Shown here in pieces: positions 2,844-48,324 of a DNA stretch of 64,000 nucleotides (position 1 is its first letter; every line of letters begins with the position of its first letter). Below the pieces are notes generated by a model that was not told the DNA's origin, did not search any database, and saw only the letters and a program-made list of their open reading frames with translations. The position numbers and the translations under genes were made by a program. This stretch comes from Maribacter dokdonensis DSW-8. Lineage in GTDB: Bacteria > Bacteroidota > Bacteroidia > Flavobacteriales > Flavobacteriaceae. The stretch is from the NCBI RefSeq assembly GCF_001447995.1, contig NZ_LDPE01000001.1, forward strand, positions 2,108,001-2,172,000. Reading direction: 5' to 3'.

Positions 2844-3710
2844 ATGGGAACAAAGAAAAAGAAATACAAAGGAGATAAATATGCTCAAAAAAAGCATCAA
2901 GAAAAAGGTCCCGTAAAAGCAAAAAAACACCTTGGCCAGCATTTTCTAAAAGATGAGAATATTGCCAAACAAATAGCAGATACGTTATTACAGAAAGACT
3001 ATAAAAATGTAATTGAAATTGGTCCGGGTACGGGGGTATTAACAAAGTACCTACTATTACGCAACAGTAATTTAGTGGCCATGGACTTAGATACGGAGTC
3101 TATCAACTACTTGAACGAAACTTTTCCACTAGAGCATCCAAAGGCATTTCAAGGTGAAGGTTCTTTTAAGGTTATTGAAGCGGATTTTTTAAATTTCGAT
3201 ATCTCCACTTTATTTGGCAATGAGCAGTTTGGCATTACGGGTAACTTCCCCTATAACATCTCAACCCAAATAGTTTTTAAAATGTTAGAGCTACGAGATC
3301 AAATTCCAGAATTTTCGGGTATGTTTCAAAAAGAGGTAGCACAACGTATATGTTCGTCAGAAGGTAGCAAGGCCTATGGTATTCTTTCTGTATTGTCTCA
3401 AGCATTTTATGATGCCGAATATTTATTTACCGTTGAAGCCGATGTCTTTGACCCCCCACCAAAAGTGCAATCGGGCGTTTTAAGATTGACCCGAAAAGAA
3501 AATTTTAAACTCCCTTGTGACGAACAACTACTTTATAGGGTAGTAAAGACAGCTTTTAACCAAAGAAGAAAGACATTACGTAACAGTTTAAAAACATTCA
3601 CTTTATCAGATAATCTAAGAGAAGACACTATATTTGACCTTAGACCGGAACAATTATCGGTCGAAGATTTTATTGCATTGACGAAGAAAATAGCAGATGA
3701 CACCCTTTAA
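2844..3710 (+). CDS. rsmA: 16S rRNA (adenine(1518)-N6/adenine(1519)-N6)-dimethyltransferase RsmA (KsgA)
   Basis: A 288-residue Rossmann-fold methyltransferase that dimethylates the two adjacent adenines of the helix-45 loop of 16S rRNA late in 30S assembly, using S-adenosylmethionine. Visible signatures are [11 protein letters not shown] near residues 27-37, the SAM-binding EIGPGTGVL near 57-65, and the catalytic NFPYNIS near 133-139, a variant of NLPYNIS. The C-terminal helical domain has the usual [12 protein letters not shown]. Length is slightly above average because of a lysine-rich 25-residue N-terminal extension. Its last 14 nt overlap the start of mgtE, which implies translational coupling. 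Confidence 0.96.
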
Positions 3711-5049
3711 ACTTACAGACGAATTAGTTTCAGAAATAGAACAGCTCATTGAACAAAATAATGACGCTGAACTAAATGCTATGTTAGGGACCGTGCATTA
3801 TGCAGATGTTGCGGAGATCATTAATGAACTGGATAAGGAGCAGGCAACTTATTTGATCAAATTATTGGACAGCGATAAAACATCGGATGTTCTTACAGAA
3901 CTAGATGAAGATGTCCGTGAAGCTATTCTTAGTAATTTATCTACCAAGGAAATTGCGGGCGAGCTAGAAGAACTTGACACAGATGATGCTGCCGATATTA
4001 TTGGTGAACTACCAAAAGAACAAATACAGGATGTTATCTCTAAAATTGAAGATAGGGAACATGCCAAAGATATTGTTGATCTTTTAAGATATGCCGAAGA
4101 TTCCGCAGGGGGACTCATGGCAAAAGAGCTTGTAAAGGTGAACGAAAACTGGAACGTGCTTACATGCGTAAAAGAAATGCGCACACAAGCAGAAAACGTT
4201 ACCCGTGTACATTCTATCTACGTAGTAGATGATGAAGATAAACTAAAAGGTCGTTTATCCTTAAAAGACTTATTGACCACATCTACCAAAACCCACATAA
4301 AGGATGTTTTTATAAAAAATGTAGATTCGGTCAACGTTAATGAAGATCCAGAGGAAGTTGCTAGGATTATGAGCAAATATGACCTTGAAGCCATACCTGT
4401 GGTTGACGAAATTGGCAGGTTGGTGGGGCGTATTACAATTGATGATATTGTAGATGTCATTAAAGAAGAAGCGGAACGAGATTACCAAATGGCCGCGGGT
4501 ATTTCACAAGATGTTGAGGCAGACGATAGTATTTGGGATTTAACTAGAGCTCGTTTACCATGGCTGATCTTAGGGCTTTTTGGTGGTGCCGCCGCCGCAG
4601 TAATTATGGGCGGTTTTGAAGAAATGTTTCGTGAGTATACCGTACTTTTTCTATTTACACCACTAATAGCGGCAATGGCAGGTAATGTTGGAGTACAATC
4701 TAGTGCTATTATAGTACAAGGTCTGGCCAATGACGACATTAAAGGAAGCATCAGTAATAGATTGATAAAAGAAATGTTATTGGCATTATTGAACGGGTTT
4801 ATCCTATCTTGCTTACTGCTTATTTTTACTTGGATTTGGAAAGGGGATTTTCCCACCTCATTGGCAATTTCCATATCACTGATCGCCGTTATTGTAGTAG
4901 CCGGTTTCATAGGCACATTTGTGCCATTGTTTTTAGACAAAAGAGGTATTGACCCCGCCATTGCAACAGGACCTTTTATTACGACTAGTAATGACATTTT
5001 TGGTATATTAATTTACTTCTCTATCGCAAAATTGATTTTGGGCATATAA
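3697..5049 (+). CDS. mgtE: Magnesium transporter MgtE
   Basis: A 450-residue inner-membrane Mg2+ channel of normal MgtE length. The order is an acidic helical N domain at about residues 1-130 ([18 protein letters not shown] repeats), a CBS pair at about 135-255 ([29 protein letters not shown]), then a plug helix and five membrane segments from about 285 to the end. The signature [18 protein letters not shown], which lines the ion pathway, is intact. The cytosolic domains sense Mg2+ and close the pore. It overlaps rsmA by 14 nt, so no upstream Mg2+ riboswitch is possible at this start. Pairing with rsmA is common in Flavobacteriia. Confidence 0.95.
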
Positions 5050-44608: not shown

Positions 44609-44941
44609 TTACTTTCCTAGCATCAACAGCTCATTACACCTAACTTCGGTAATATATCTTTTATCACCTTCTTTGGTTTCATAAGAGCGATGGGTTAATT
44701 TTCCCTCTATGGCAACCTGTTTGCCTTTTATCAAATAATTCTCTACGATTTCAGCAGTCTTACCCCACGCTACAATATTATGCCATTGGGTATCATCTAC
44801 TTTTTCTCCGTTTGCATTTTTGTAACTGTCTGTGGTAGCAATGGAAAATTTTGCCAATTTGTTGCCTCCTTCCAAGTTTACAATTTCTGGGTCTTGCCCT
44901 AAATGTCCAATCAACTGTACTTTGTTCTTTAATGCGTTCAT
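44609..44941 (-). CDS. ssb: Short single-stranded DNA-binding protein without an acidic tail
   Basis: 110 residues, a single OB-fold: NKVQLIGHLGQDPEI, KLAKFSIATTD, TQWHNIVAWGKTAEIVENYLIKGKQVAIEGKL, and YITEVRCNELLMLGK at the end. Canonical SSB is longer and ends in an acidic DDDIPF-type peptide that recruits repair proteins; here the protein stops after the OB-fold. This is probably the second, shorter SSB of the genome, possibly used in recombination or mobile-DNA contexts. Its upstream region contains the CGTTT repeats and was later split from the next gene by a transposon. Confidence 0.9.
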   Translation of the reverse strand: MNALKNKVQLIGHLGQDPEIVNLEGGNKLAKFSIATTDSYKNANGEKVDDTQWHNIVAWGKTAEIVENYLIKGKQVAIEGKLTHRSYETKEGDKRYITEVRCNELLMLGK

Positions 44942-45035: not shown

Positions 45036-45090
45036 GTAAACGTTTACTATCGTTTGTTGTCGTTTACATTCGTTTATAAACGTTTTTATT
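45036..45090. repeat. Five CGTTT boxes at exact 10-bp spacing with two 12-bp palindromes
   Basis: CGTTT occurs at 45041, 45051, 45061, 45071 and 45081, one per helical turn, so all face the same side of DNA. GTAAACGTTTAC (45036-45047) and CGTTTATAAACG (45071-45082) are perfect 12-bp palindromes. It lies about 95 bp upstream of ssb, before the target duplication. The rest of the 413-bp gap 44942-45354 holds the ssb promoter area and the left transposon end; no gene is seen. Confidence 0.75.
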
Positions 45091-45093
45091 GTT

Positions 45094-45101
45094 GATTTAC
45101 A
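45094..45101. repeat. Left target-site duplication GATTTACA
   Basis: Eight bases identical to 48289-48296, directly outside the left inverted repeat. An 8-bp duplication is typical of IS1595-family insertion. Confidence 0.93.
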
Positions 45102-45124
45102 GGCAACTATATACTTGTTTACAC
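45102..45124 (+). repeat. Left terminal inverted repeat
   Basis: Begins GGCAACTATATAC and ends TTTACAC. Aligned with the right end (minus strand GGTAACTATATAC ... ATTACAC), 18 of 23 positions match, 12 of the first 13. Confidence 0.9.
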
Positions 45125-45354
45125 TTAGAAGTAAAGTTTGATTTCGGGTGCTATACCCTGTATTTTTTTTTCGGTTGATTGATTACTACTTGTGTTATGG
45201 TTACTACATCGCTAAATCAATATAGCAGAGCATAACTTTTTTCATATACCAATATTCCGAATTTCAATGAGCGTTGTGCATTGTCAATGAAACGCTTTCT
45301 TAGGACGTTTCCAAGACTATACGGTCAAAACCGATGCTATGTTTCTGAATTTAA

Positions 45355-45540
45355 TTAAGCAAGTCCGAGTCCTATTACTGTTTGTGTTGCCATCTCCTGA
45401 ATTTTCTCATCAGTAAGATCGTTAATTGGTTTGCTTTGGGCTGAAACCCAACCAATATTTTTAGCAGAACGTACAGATACAATTCCGTTTTCATACTTAA
45501 CATGAAAATTTTTACCTCTAATAATCATAGTTGTTTCCAT
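45355..45540 (-). CDS. 61-residue hypothetical passenger protein
   Basis: Starts METTMIIRGKNFHVKYENGI and ends TQTVIGLGLA. A beta-strand-rich first half (RGKNFHVKYENGIVSVRS) is followed by an acidic helix (DLTDEKIQEMATQ). It begins 4 bp after the rhuM stop on the same strand, so it is the last gene of the transposase-rhuM transcript. I do not recognise a family. It could be a partner or modulator of RhuM; there is no direct evidence. Confidence 0.65.
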   Translation of the reverse strand: METTMIIRGKNFHVKYENGIVSVRSAKNIGWVSAQSKPINDLTDEKIQEMATQTVIGLGLA

Positions 45541-45544
45541 GATG

Positions 45545-46666
45545 CTATTTATTTTCGTGAGGATTCCAATTTAACCCTTGTTTTAGTTTTTTGTTAAAAT
45601 CTGATAAAGGAGGTGGCGCTGGGGGTAATGGTGGTGGTGGAGGTAATTTCTCCCCCTTATTTATCTTAGAAACCACCCTGTCAAAATCAGACACAAATTC
45701 TTTATCTTGTTTTATTCTAAATTTTTGATACTCACTTTCTGCAAACTTTTTAGCTACGTCTTTTCTTATTCTACCAGCATCATCTAATAAATTATAATCA
45801 TTGAATTGCAAAAAGGAATCTAACTTATTAGCCCATTCAGCCATAGTCATAGTTTTACCTCTTTTTGCTTGTAATTCTGCAAAATCTAAGTACATATTAA
45901 CTAAAGTGTTAAGCTCTCCTATTTCTTCTTTTTTAAGATAATTCTTAGCTACAGACACATCGGTCTTAATAATTTTTCCACCTTTTTTTTCATTTTTCCA
46001 ACTTGTCAAACCCATATTGGGCTTTTTAGAATCAGCTCTTAATTTTATTATTTCTGGTGCTGTGTGATGTGTTATTGCATACTCTAATTTATTTTGTACG
46101 GTTGCAAAAAACAACCTTGTAATCTCTGCTTTAGGATTATAATCAATTGCTGTTGCATATAAATCTGTGATTTTTTGATAAAACCTTCTTTCAGAAGCTC
46201 GTATCTCTCTTACAATCTCAATTAATTCATCAAAATAATCTTTATCAAAAAGATTTTTTCCTTGTTTCAATCTATCATCATCAATAGCAAAACCTTTAAC
46301 TAAATAGTTCTTGAGTACACTATTTGCCCATATTCTAAACATGGTTGCTTTTTGTGAACTAACTCTGTAGCCTACTGATATTATGGCATCTAAATTATAG
46401 AAATCGATGTTTCTCTGTACATCTCGATTACCTTCCTTTTGAACTGTCAAAATTTCTTTGACAGTTGAATATTTATTTAGTTCACCCTCCTTGTAAATAT
46501 TACCTAAATGATAACTAATAATTTGCTTAGAGGTGCCAAAAATATCAGCCATGCTGTTTTGAGATACCCAAACAGTTTCGTTTTTATCATCAAGTATTAC
46601 TTGGATGTTCGTAGTACCGTTATCCGAAGTATAGAACATGAATTCTGTGTTCTCTAAACTATGCAT
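45545..46666 (-). CDS. RhuM-family protein carried as transposon cargo
   Basis: A 373-residue cytosolic protein. The N-terminal part (VWVSQNSMADIFGTSKQIISYHLGNIYKEGEL, then NIDFYNLDAIISVGYRVSSQKATMFRIWA) is the hallmark of the RhuM family, with an HTH-like first segment suggesting nucleic-acid binding. The middle is helical (ASERRFYQKITDLYATAIDY). Near the C terminus is a proline tract (LPPPPPLPPAPPPLSDF). The family was named from a Salmonella pathogenicity island gene; its biochemical function is unknown. Its first 8 nt overlap the end of the transposase gene, showing it is a true passenger in the same transcript. Confidence 0.88.
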   Translation of the reverse strand: MHSLENTEFMFYTSDNGTTNIQVILDDKNETVWVSQNSMADIFGTSKQIISYHLGNIYKEGELNKYSTVKEILTVQKEGNRDVQRNIDFYNLDAIISVGYRVSSQKATMFRIWANSVLKNYLVKGFAIDDDRLKQGKNLFDKDYFDELIEIVREIRASERRFYQKITDLYATAIDYNPKAEITRLFFATVQNKLEYAITHHTAPEIIKLRADSKKPNMGLTSWKNEKKGGKIIKTDVSVAKNYLKKEEIGELNTLVNMYLDFAELQAKRGKTMTMAEWANKLDSFLQFNDYNLLDDAGRIRKDVAKKFAESEYQKFRIKQDKEFVSDFDRVVSKINKGEKLPPPPPLPPAPPPLSDFNKKLKQGLNWNPHENK

Positions 46667-47564
46667 TTATTAATTCTTTATAGGTTATTCTATTTTCTAT
46701 GTTTTGTAAAAATAAATTAAATCTCATTGCTTCACTAGACGTTCTTGAATTGTAGCGAAATACGAATTCATCAACGTATAATTGTAAATGCTTTTTAGAA
46801 GTAAAATGATAAATACCCACAATACCTCTTTTTAACAAAGACCAAAATGCCTCTATTGTATTTGTATGTACTCTACCTTGTACATATTGGTATTGGCTAT
46901 GCTTCACAACTTGGTGGTCGTAAACTCTTTTTAAGCGCTTATAAGATGTATATTCATCAGTGTAAAGTTTTGCTGTTTCCTTTACACTTTTAAGTATCTC
47001 GATTGATAATGTTTCATAAGTTGTATTAGGTATCTGCTTAGCTATTACTTTACCATTTCTTTCTACCATTCCCAAAACTGGCGCTTTATCATCAGAAGAA
47101 CCTTTAATCTTTTTATTAGCGTGTCTGTTTTTATTCTTACCACCTACAAAAGTTTCATCCGCTTCAACTTCATTATCTAATTGAGAATCGTTATCAATAC
47201 CGAAGCATTGACGTATTCTAGACAACATGAACCAAGCAGATTTTTGAGTAATATTTAAATCTCTACCTAACTGTAAAGAGGAAATACCTTTCTTATGTAA
47301 AGTAACTAACCATATACCTAAAAACCACTTTTGAAGTTCAATTTTCGTGTTGTCAAAAATAGTGTTGGTCTTTACGTTAAAATATTTACCTGTATTCTTA
47401 CATTTGTATTTGTTCCCCTTACAATTATAAACCTTAGATTCTGAATCGAAAGGACTTACAACGTTTCCGTTCCATCTTAATTGCTCTAAATGGTCAATAC
47501 AAGATTGTTGAGTTGGAAAGGCTTTGATTAAGTCTATTATCGAATTAAAATCTTGGTTGATCAT
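46659..47564 (-). CDS. IS1595-family (ISXO2-like) transposase
   Basis: 301 residues. An N-terminal zinc-ribbon-like segment with partly lost cysteines (VYNCKGNKYKCKNTGKYFNV) is followed by NTIFDNTKIELQKWFLGIWL, then an HTH (ISSLQLGRDLNITQKSAWFMLSRIR). The ISXO2-like DDE domain starts at VEADETFVGGK (first Asp), has TDEYTSYKRL (second) and HTNTIEAFWSLLKRGIVGIYH (third acidic region), then RYNSRTSSEAM. It catalyses cut-and-paste transposition of the element. It is full length with no frameshift. Confidence 0.94.
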   Translation of the reverse strand: MINQDFNSIIDLIKAFPTQQSCIDHLEQLRWNGNVVSPFDSESKVYNCKGNKYKCKNTGKYFNVKTNTIFDNTKIELQKWFLGIWLVTLHKKGISSLQLGRDLNITQKSAWFMLSRIRQCFGIDNDSQLDNEVEADETFVGGKNKNRHANKKIKGSSDDKAPVLGMVERNGKVIAKQIPNTTYETLSIEILKSVKETAKLYTDEYTSYKRLKRVYDHQVVKHSQYQYVQGRVHTNTIEAFWSLLKRGIVGIYHFTSKKHLQLYVDEFVFRYNSRTSSEAMRFNLFLQNIENRITYKELINA

Positions 47565-47595
47565 AATAGTATTATTGTACAGCTAAGATAATACT

Positions 47596-47631
47596 TTAAT
47601 TACACCAAGCCTAATTATTTAGTGTAATTAA
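47596..47631. promoter_or_regulatory. Inverted repeat in the divergent promoter region of the transposon
   Basis: TTAATTACAC (47596-47605) and GTGTAATTAA (47622-47631) form 10-bp perfect arms around 16 bp, between the transposase and the membrane-protein gene. ATTACACC here also occurs in the right terminal repeat. It may be an operator, perhaps bound by the transposase or another element-encoded protein. Confidence 0.5.
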
Positions 47632-47650
47632 GTTCTAAAAAAATAATTTT

Positions 47651-48211
47651 ATGAACAATAATGAGGATGATGATTTTAAATTTATAACAAGCGAGTATAT
47701 AAATAATTTAGATTTAAAACTTAAATCCAATTTTGAATACTTAACCGAAAATCAGAAAAACGATATTAAATTATCTGATTTATGTACAAATTTTATAGTT
47801 AGTTATTTATCATTAACCATTGATGGGATAGGTAAGATAGACCAGTTAATTTTAGATAGAAACAAAATGAAAATAACCTTAGATCGGTTTATGAATAAGC
47901 AAAATGCAACTTACATGGGTTACGCAAAAATAACTAGTAAAACAAATGATTGTTATGTTTTAGAATTAACGGAAAGTGGAAGAATATACTATAGACATTC
48001 AGATGTAAAATACAGAATTAAGTTTCCTACATTAATCCAAAAGATCAAACTATATATATTAAATCTTACTAAAAAATTAAAATCTTTAGTCTTTGTATCT
48101 GCAAACAATAAAATAAAAATGATAATGGATAGTGGTATAACAAGACTAATACTGTTTATACTTAGTGTTATAACATTCGTTATTTTAATAAAAAACAACT
48201 TCTTTAATTGA
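47651..48211 (+). CDS. Hypothetical passenger protein with a C-terminal membrane anchor
   Basis: 186 residues, divergent from the transposase. Residues 1-105 are soluble (a helical start, then KITLDRFMNKQNATYMGYAKI and CYVLELTESGRIYY, reminiscent of a winged-helix end). Residues about 120-155 are basic (KIKLYILNLTKKLKSL). One strong membrane span lies at the C terminus (TRLILFILSVITFVILI), followed by KNNFFN. No known family is recognised. Because it is inside the terminal repeats it is cargo. Confidence 0.75.
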   Translation: MNNNEDDDFKFITSEYINNLDLKLKSNFEYLTENQKNDIKLSDLCTNFIVSYLSLTIDGIGKIDQLILDRNKMKITLDRFMNKQNATYMGYAKITSKTNDCYVLELTESGRIYYRHSDVKYRIKFPTLIQKIKLYILNLTKKLKSLVFVSANNKIKMIMDSGITRLILFILSVITFVILIKNNFFN

Positions 48212-48265
48212 ATTACATTAAAACATAATCCAATTATAATTGGTATTAATATCTTCATCTAATCG

Positions 48266-48288
48266 GTGTAATGTTGTATATAGTTACC
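48266..48288 (-). repeat. Right terminal inverted repeat
   Basis: On the minus strand GGTAACTATATAC begins the end and ATTACAC closes it. It pairs with 45102-45124. Confidence 0.9.
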
Positions 48289-48296
48289 GATTTACA
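48289..48296. repeat. Right target-site duplication GATTTACA
   Basis: Identical to 45094-45101. Removing the element and one copy restores a continuous intergenic region upstream of ssb. Confidence 0.93.
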
Positions 48297-48324
48297 GTAA
48301 TTTACAAAACATAGAAGAGTTATA

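Follow-up and report, generated by a model that had tools for sequence, protein, structure and literature searches.

We describe an insertion element in a 64,000-nucleotide stretch of the Maribacter dokdonensis DSW-8 genome (contig NZ_LDPE01000001.1, positions 2,108,001 to 2,172,000; hereafter the window, within which all positions below are counted). This 3187-bp element is probably an IS1595 transposon with a two-protein module, from a mainly Bacteroidota subfamily in which the transposase (Tnp) is paired with the product of a second open reading frame (ORF2) that has a swappable body, here RhuM, and a putative docking tail, and in which insertion is directed to a site upstream of the host gene ssb.

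The element, its transposase and its relatives

Membership of IS1595 rests on the transposase domain, the ends and the target duplication. The element is delimited as follows:

45102–48288, no strand: whole element, 3187 bp, IS1595 family
45094–45101, no strand: target-site duplication GATTTACA, ssb side
48289–48296, no strand: target-site duplication GATTTACA, far side
45102–45124, plus strand: terminal inverted repeat, tnp-distal end adjoining ssb
48266–48288, minus strand: terminal inverted repeat, tnp-proximal end

Read inward, the ends are GGCAACTATATACTTGTTTACAC and GGTAACTATATACAACATTACAC, forming imperfect 23-nt arms that are 78% complementary. When we required GG ends, an exact 8-bp repeat, a spacing of 700–6000 bp and no fewer than 17 matches among 24 end bases, these ends were the sole pair in the window, and 20 mononucleotide shuffles of the window yielded no pair by the same criteria. 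The transposase matched DDE_Tnp_IS1595 (1.8e-43, 148.6 bits; cut-off 27) and retains the catalytic residues D136, D203 and E238 within DETFVGG, YTDEY and TIEAFW. Its match to Zn_ribbon_IS1595 stayed below the cut-off of 25.4 (E 0.0022, 18.4 bits), and its only cysteines are at positions 22, 48, 55 and 120; PMC8101967 places an N-terminal zinc finger in all IS1595 groups except IS1016. The element has a G+C content of 29.6% versus 36.6% for the window, and Tnp and end-pattern searches of the 4.43-Mb genome found a single Tnp copy and these two ends only. We also noticed a perfect 16-nt inverted match, possibly due to chance, between tnp codons (46695–46710) and the right flank just outside the element (48301–48316).

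A search of genome contigs with Tnp gave 463 confirmed loci, from which the best 80 were taken, and family, order, phylum and genus searches added more. We examined 110 loci, namely the window and 109 loci with a Tnp hit. Similar ends that bear TATA, together with an exact 8-bp duplication, were called automatically at 50 of the 110, and two of these calls (L029 and L081) look spurious; the 50 calls point to a large, mainly Bacteroidota family with elements of ~2–6 kb. A preliminary description of the window had proposed a genuine insertion, complete and of IS1595 type, with terminal inverted repeats, a perfect 8-bp duplication, an intact ISXO2-like transposase and intact frames, all of which our analysis bears out; its caveat, that no second element with the same ends might exist, is answered by the 50 calls. 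For phylogeny, we dropped Tnp matches shorter than 275 residues, duplicates with identical Tnps (144 to 131 rows) and Tnps below 48% identity (131 to 95), and built one tree from the 95 remaining Tnps and a second from 48 of them, picked by hand.

The coupled second gene and its common tail

The element contains the following coding features:

46659–47564, minus strand: tnp, IS1595/ISXO2-like DDE transposase, 301 aa
45545–46666, minus strand: ORF2, rhuM body plus tail, 373 aa; its start overlaps the tnp stop by 8 bp (46659–46666)
45548–45610, minus strand: codons of the common tail, residues 353–373 (tail hidden Markov model (HMM), 44.3 bits; DNA homology to sister elements over 45541–45605 despite a non-homologous body)
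45355–45540, minus strand: 61-aa ORF in a variable slot (both aligned sister elements lack a counterpart of 45333–45540)
47651–48211, plus strand: 186-aa ORF in a variable slot, divergent (~47640–48253 is replaced in the two sister elements aligned)

A Pfam scan identified Virulence_RhuM (PF13310) in ORF2 (5.8e-110, 367 bits versus a gathering score of 33.7) and no family above the cut-off in the 61-aa and 186-aa ORFs; judged by eye, the latter is possibly a membrane anchor. Coupling of the tnp stop to an ORF of at least 45 aa was seen for 46 of the 52 Tnps at 60–100% identity, the window included, and for 28/38 at 50–60%, 8/20 at 40–50% and 2/18 below 40%, when compared to 1.9, 1.45, 0.6 and 1.25, respectively, in shuffled downstream DNA. 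At 60–100% identity the coupled ORF also bore a loose form of the tail motif in 44 of the 52 (shuffled DNA: 0.3). Since the start of ORF2 falls within the tnp stop or next to it, with an overlap of exactly 8 bp in 39 of the 75 ORF2s of classed body, the two proteins are likely made together.

The bodies, classed with home-made HMMs and a regular expression for the 'mini' class, comprise P63C (PF10546), RhuM, KilA-N (PF04383), Bro-N (PF02498), a 397-aa helix-turn-helix (HTH) protein whose tail lies on a neighbouring ORF, and mini proteins of 71–91 aa that consist of a short head and the tail with little else (labels are doubtful at L080, a broken P63C gene, and at L012 and L072, mini proteins that scored as Bro-N). 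Tnps 98% (L031, L032) and 94% (L033) identical to that of the window are followed by P63C and not by RhuM, and on the 95-Tnp tree the body class requires 33 changes among the 78 rows bearing one of six labels. Alignment of the window element with its sisters in G1026 and G1034 showed 82–100% identity over element positions 1–231, 440–504 (the tail codons), 1554–2538 (tnp together with the DNA upstream of it) and the final 35 or 27 bases (3153 or 3161 to 3187), with only scattered 15–21-nt alignments of 69–88% identity in between. Because sister homology is confined to these blocks, the stretches that hold the RhuM body and the two small ORFs appear to be slots whose content is exchanged. The three genes that the preliminary description had listed as cargo, RhuM among them, are all present; for rhuM the label of cargo does not hold well, as its overlap with tnp and its place in a swappable series with a common tail suggest that it is the ORF2 of a tnp-coupled series and not an ordinary passenger.

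The tail, with consensus ~[LS].F[ND]..LK.[GA]L.[YFW][ND]P (LSDFNKKLKQGLNWNP-like), is usually C-terminal. The tail HMM reached at least 10 bits at 51 of the 54 loci with Tnps of at least 60% identity and at 14/39 with Tnps of 50–60%, when compared to maxima of 9.1 bits at RhuM loci without tnp and 9.6 bits in shuffles; the three exceptions in the former group are L048, which has an N-terminal motif (7.2 bits), and L052 and L067, which are cut by contig ends. Among the 30 RhuM loci read, the tail was present in 5/5 beside tnp (window included) and in 0/25 others, three of which (L138, L139 and L140) are fragments or odd. In the best 120 of 7999 RhuM homologues scored, a threshold of 15 bits places the tail in 72 and leaves 48 without it (P0052, at 11.2 bits, is among the latter), and on a RhuM body tree (FastTree) tail presence needs 13 changes, at least 8 of them via well supported branches; the tail is found in 34 of the best 120 of 255 P63C homologues. 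Tail similarity rises with Tnp identity across the 1245 pairs whose bodies differ (Spearman rho 0.62; 0/2000 within-class permutations), and pairs sharing a body are no closer in their tails (0.508) than pairs with different bodies (0.526). These observations suggest that tail and body are largely independent, and we infer that the tail is a transposase-docking peptide with putative binding to Tnp.

If the tail were instead conserved as a DNA recombination junction for body exchange and not as a peptide, sister homology could be expected to resume over the tail codons, as it does, and pairwise codon differences that change the residue do exceed silent ones (12170 to 7015). However, the third codon position differs most (0.375, 0.257 and 0.56 at the three positions; 1550 different-body pairs), and the motif also occurs N-terminally (L040, L048), internally (L070) or on a separate ORF (L036, L038, L045, L086), leaving this alternative scarcely any credence. 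The tail HMM found nothing significant in three plasmid relatives (B. faecis, Entomospira and Methylocystis). Unannotated small ORFs begin at or directly after the tnp stop in the plasmid IS1595 relatives of Entomospira (Spirochaetota; L281:3416–3622) and Methylocystis (L282:3406–3588); their sequences (KTLKYNPDRKK; SFGEAMTRFVAVKPKE) are perhaps those of distant mini ORF2s.

Structure prediction and profile comparison were applied to the bodies. A fold search with the RhuM model gave four matches at E <0.005, all to DdrC, a DNA-binding protein of Deinococcus (query template modeling (TM) score 0.18–0.25; root-mean-square deviation (rmsd) ~13); the body of RhuM might thus be a DNA-binding module of Bro-N/DdrC-like type. 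The P63C model (predicted local distance difference test (pLDDT) 83.5) consists of a body, a disordered stretch at 289–311 and then a tail helix (pLDDT ~73–80), and the RhuM and P63C profiles match over 85 N-terminal columns with a probability of 93.9%; searches of solved structures by sequence with both profiles returned none at E 0.1. Based on these models and the profile match, a single DNA-binding theme may underlie the different bodies, with a flexible linker connecting each to a short helix, which is the usual build of a docking peptide.

The bodies could also be anti-phage or phage-regulator modules kept for the benefit of the host, with the tail serving some other partner (a host factor, or stability), a reading that we consider unlikely, though less so than the other alternatives. 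PADLOC matched RhuM to PDC-S05 (2e-144), KilA-N to PDC-S22 (2e-117), Bro-N to PDC-S13 (4e-97) and the HTH protein of L036 to PD-Lambda-2_B (1e-25), and among hand-picked large side genes at six other loci it found restriction-modification at four (L084, L085, L103, L106), a KAP NTPase candidate at L083 and none at L045. On the other hand, P63C, the commonest body, had no PADLOC model match in two examples (L033, L042), mini ORF2s hold little beyond head and tail, and the tail goes with Tnp and not with the body. Moreover, the PDC families are presented in PMC12988326 as found through 'guilt by embedding' and as largely untested candidates.

The insertion site upstream of ssb

The element lies beside two host features:

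45041–45085, minus strand: host array, 5 units of AAACG with a period of 10 bp, landmark of the target site
44609–44941, minus strand: ssb, 110 aa, the neighbouring host gene; its ATG is 160 bp from the element edge, which lies upstream

Six of 36 genomes of the genus carry a Tnp at 85–100% identity, and in 6/6 the element sits just upstream of ssb in one orientation. The duplications are GATTTACA in the window, TATATACA in G1034 and G1026, GATATACA in G1015 (far end off the contig) and GATTATTA in G1013 and G1022 (far end not found in the latter); both copies are identical in the four elements with both ends seen. Letters that differ between species favour independent insertions. Identity to the window element core is 95% for G1026, 94% for G1015 and 90% for G1034, when compared to 85, 80 and 85% over the ssb flank, and since the core exceeds the flank, independent insertion with interspecies transfer is best supported for these three. 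The insertions in G1022 (core 81%, flank 81%) and G1013 (core 74%, flank 76%) could be older.

Vertical inheritance of one ancestral insertion, with internal gene replacement, would account for the shared orientation, for the base-exact position relative to the array in the five copies measured, and for the G1022 and G1013 cores being no closer than their flanks. It has little chance of being right: the duplications differ between species yet agree within each of four elements, the core of G1015 is 94% identical against 80% for its flank, and elements of other genera lie in the opposite orientation (L034, L070, L072) or on the other side of the array, the ssb side (L034, L072). That the insertion is recent, as the preliminary description had it, is plausible; the perfect duplication and the core identities of three genus copies fit, and the cores of G1022 and G1013 do not exceed their flanks in identity. 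Its proposed check for an empty site gave a clear result, with both flanks and no element at 14 of the 20 genus loci read, two of which (L195, L206) have >1 kb of other DNA between the flanks. The same account of the insertion point was incomplete in that it overlooked a recurrent, site-specific target across many genera.

Across genera, 22 of the 26 scored members of the Tnp clade were at ssb (3 unscored), as against 0/40 outside it (26 unscored). Here 'ssb' denotes an ssb match within the fetched locus (L031 was assigned by hand via its flank) and 'not ssb' requires ~3 kb on each side of tnp. The clade has a Shimodaira–Hasegawa-like approximate likelihood ratio test (SH-aLRT) support of 87 among the 95 Tnps, and its support in the 48-row tree is 95/95. 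At 24 ssb-site loci, an automatic end lay at most 420 bp from the ATG in 20, and inspection of the remaining four by eye revealed a variant end in L055, L060 and L062 and a degenerate end in L044. The 20 ends are 96–225 bp from the ATG, nine of them at 158–161 bp, and in 13 the distance from the element edge to the start of an AAACG unit is 26 or 27 bp. A run of three AAACG units with a period of 10 bp occurs nowhere else in the genome; the pattern was found in 45/299 genomes of the family, compared to 6/299 for a reversed control pattern, and lay at most 400 bp from the ssb start in 25 of the 30 loci read.

Taken together, the recurrence both within the genus (six genomes) and across many genera, the split by clade, the frequent tnp overlap and the common tail, found on RhuM beside tnp (5/5) and not elsewhere (0/25), speak against an ordinary IS1595 transposon with three unrelated passenger genes that landed upstream of ssb recently and by chance. 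Its ends, duplication and Tnp domain would suit such a transposon, and Siguier et al. are said to have described, in 2009, IS1595 members carrying passenger genes; we nevertheless regard this explanation as very improbable. Passenger genes alone, a single vertical insertion and DNA-level conservation of the tail were all set aside on the evidence given.

We rejected the idea that target choice depends on the body: among the 22 elements at the ssb site, ORF2 is labelled RhuM, P63C, KilA-N, Bro-N, the 397-aa HTH protein or 'other', and because six ORF2 labels occur at this site, the Tnp lineage would set the target. A likeness of the array to the inner end sequence (GTTTACA), which might have attracted Tnp, was assessed by eye, is not specific to the ssb clade and was likewise discarded.

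Several further observations concern this site. The AAACG array is also kept in element-free genomes and resembles a host regulatory site. SSB proteins usually bear an acidic tip; the short, 110-aa protein encoded here ends in NELLMLGK, without one. In several genomes of the genus, the ssb stretch has a second, more distant match. At L065 the element seems nested in, or abuts, another with ends GGCATCTATATACAACTTACCACA at the ssb site, and L018 and L020, with Tnps of 42–43% identity, show another end type (GGCATCTATATAC) at the same site. A separate Tnp subclade (L047, L058, L061, L087; support 100/99) lies, as judged by eye, inside imperfect palindromes like integron attC, for example GCACATAACCGCGG ... 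CCGTTAGGTGC, with ends near 4917, 262, 4918 and 4907 (a single end in L061), perhaps a second specialised target.

The proposed module and known systems

We propose that Tnp, a DDE transposase with similar ends and 8-bp duplications, recognises the ends and, in this clade, the ssb site; that ORF2 is tethered to Tnp via its tail; and that the attached body, here RhuM, is thereby brought to the transposition complex, where it might bind DNA, regulate or sense. Elements of this Tnp clade mostly insert beside the AAACG array just upstream of ssb and leave ssb intact, and bodies and side genes would be exchanged by recombination in the conserved blocks of tnp, tail and ends. A bolder version, which we put forward tentatively as somewhat short of an even chance, is a plug-and-play arrangement: one docking tail would fit several DNA-binding or sensor proteins to one transposase, lineage alone would program the address (the ssb array, or attC-like hairpins in the other clade), and the bodies would act as partners or triggers of transposition.

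A number of results weigh against the proposed module. Coupling and tail fade with Tnp identity: the tail HMM reached 10 bits at 0/38 loci with Tnps below 50% identity, and 25/39 at 50–60% fell below that score. By eye, nine of these 25 have a second form of the tail (LLNVPPPKK-like) and six a mini form (TEFDKMIKQVFPKK-like), and ten have no recognisable tail (L084, L085, L091, L092, L107, L108, L109, L144, L150, L151). ORF2 may therefore not be essential, and it does not characterise the IS1595 family as a whole. The distribution of body classes on the tree departs from randomness, as all eight labels together require 45 changes versus a shuffled mean of 59.4 (0/200 as low). Tail and tnp are linked in one element, so that shared history alone could explain the correlation between them, and most codon differences in the tail change the residue. 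Four scored members of the ssb clade (L059, L066, L086, L097) are away from ssb. The RhuM model is poor (mean pLDDT 56.7; ~65–87 for residues 31–110), as is the overlay of its best DdrC match (E 2e-4, TM 0.25/0.37, rmsd 13.4), and the matches of RhuM, KilA-N and Bro-N to PADLOC defence candidates fit cargo too.

If true, a protein that is coupled to the transposase and keeps its tail while its body is exchanged would represent a new type of transposition accessory, and such tails would be a ready supply of short peptides that bind transposases. In Flavobacteriaceae the ssb address offers a naturally used and apparently harmless point for site-specific insertion; it also marks a host regulatory array worth separate study. 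RhuM, KilA-N and Bro-N candidate defence genes may partly owe their mobile neighbourhood to transposons, and if the plug-and-play arrangement is true, bodies currently catalogued as candidate defence genes or as virulence factors would be partners in transposition or would trigger it. A literature search, with most subscription papers outside its scope, found no description of the tail, the body exchange or the ssb site.

Tn7 inserts recurrently at an attachment site, at a near-fixed distance from a conserved host gene that is left intact, and the window element's family likewise recurs at a near-fixed distance from an intact ssb. Unlike Tn7, it uses another transposase, a target upstream of the gene and both orientations, and the Pfam scan of the four ORFs of the window element found no TnsABCDE, TnsABC or TnsD family. 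IstA and IstB of IS21 form a two-gene transposition module, which resembles the production here of a second element protein with the transposase; in contrast to IstB, the window ORF2 has no AAA+ Pfam match, and its body varies while its tail is constant. The body itself belongs to the RhuM family (PF13310; PDC-S05), of which the free genes read have no tail. With IS1595 (ISXO2-like) the element shares the DDE_Tnp_IS1595 domain, similar ends starting with GG and 8-bp duplications, and several relatives are annotated 'IS1595 family transposase'. It departs from the usual pattern in its coupled, tailed ORF2, its two further ORFs and its one preferred site: IS1595 members usually have one gene, that of the transposase (PMC8101967), and the insertions of ISApl4 are spread over many A/T-rich sites (PMC12561309). 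Although family and genes differ, the element is also comparable to Tn3-family transposons, in which toxin-antitoxin genes are described as an integral part (PMC7157771), in that apparent cargo may belong to the transposition module.

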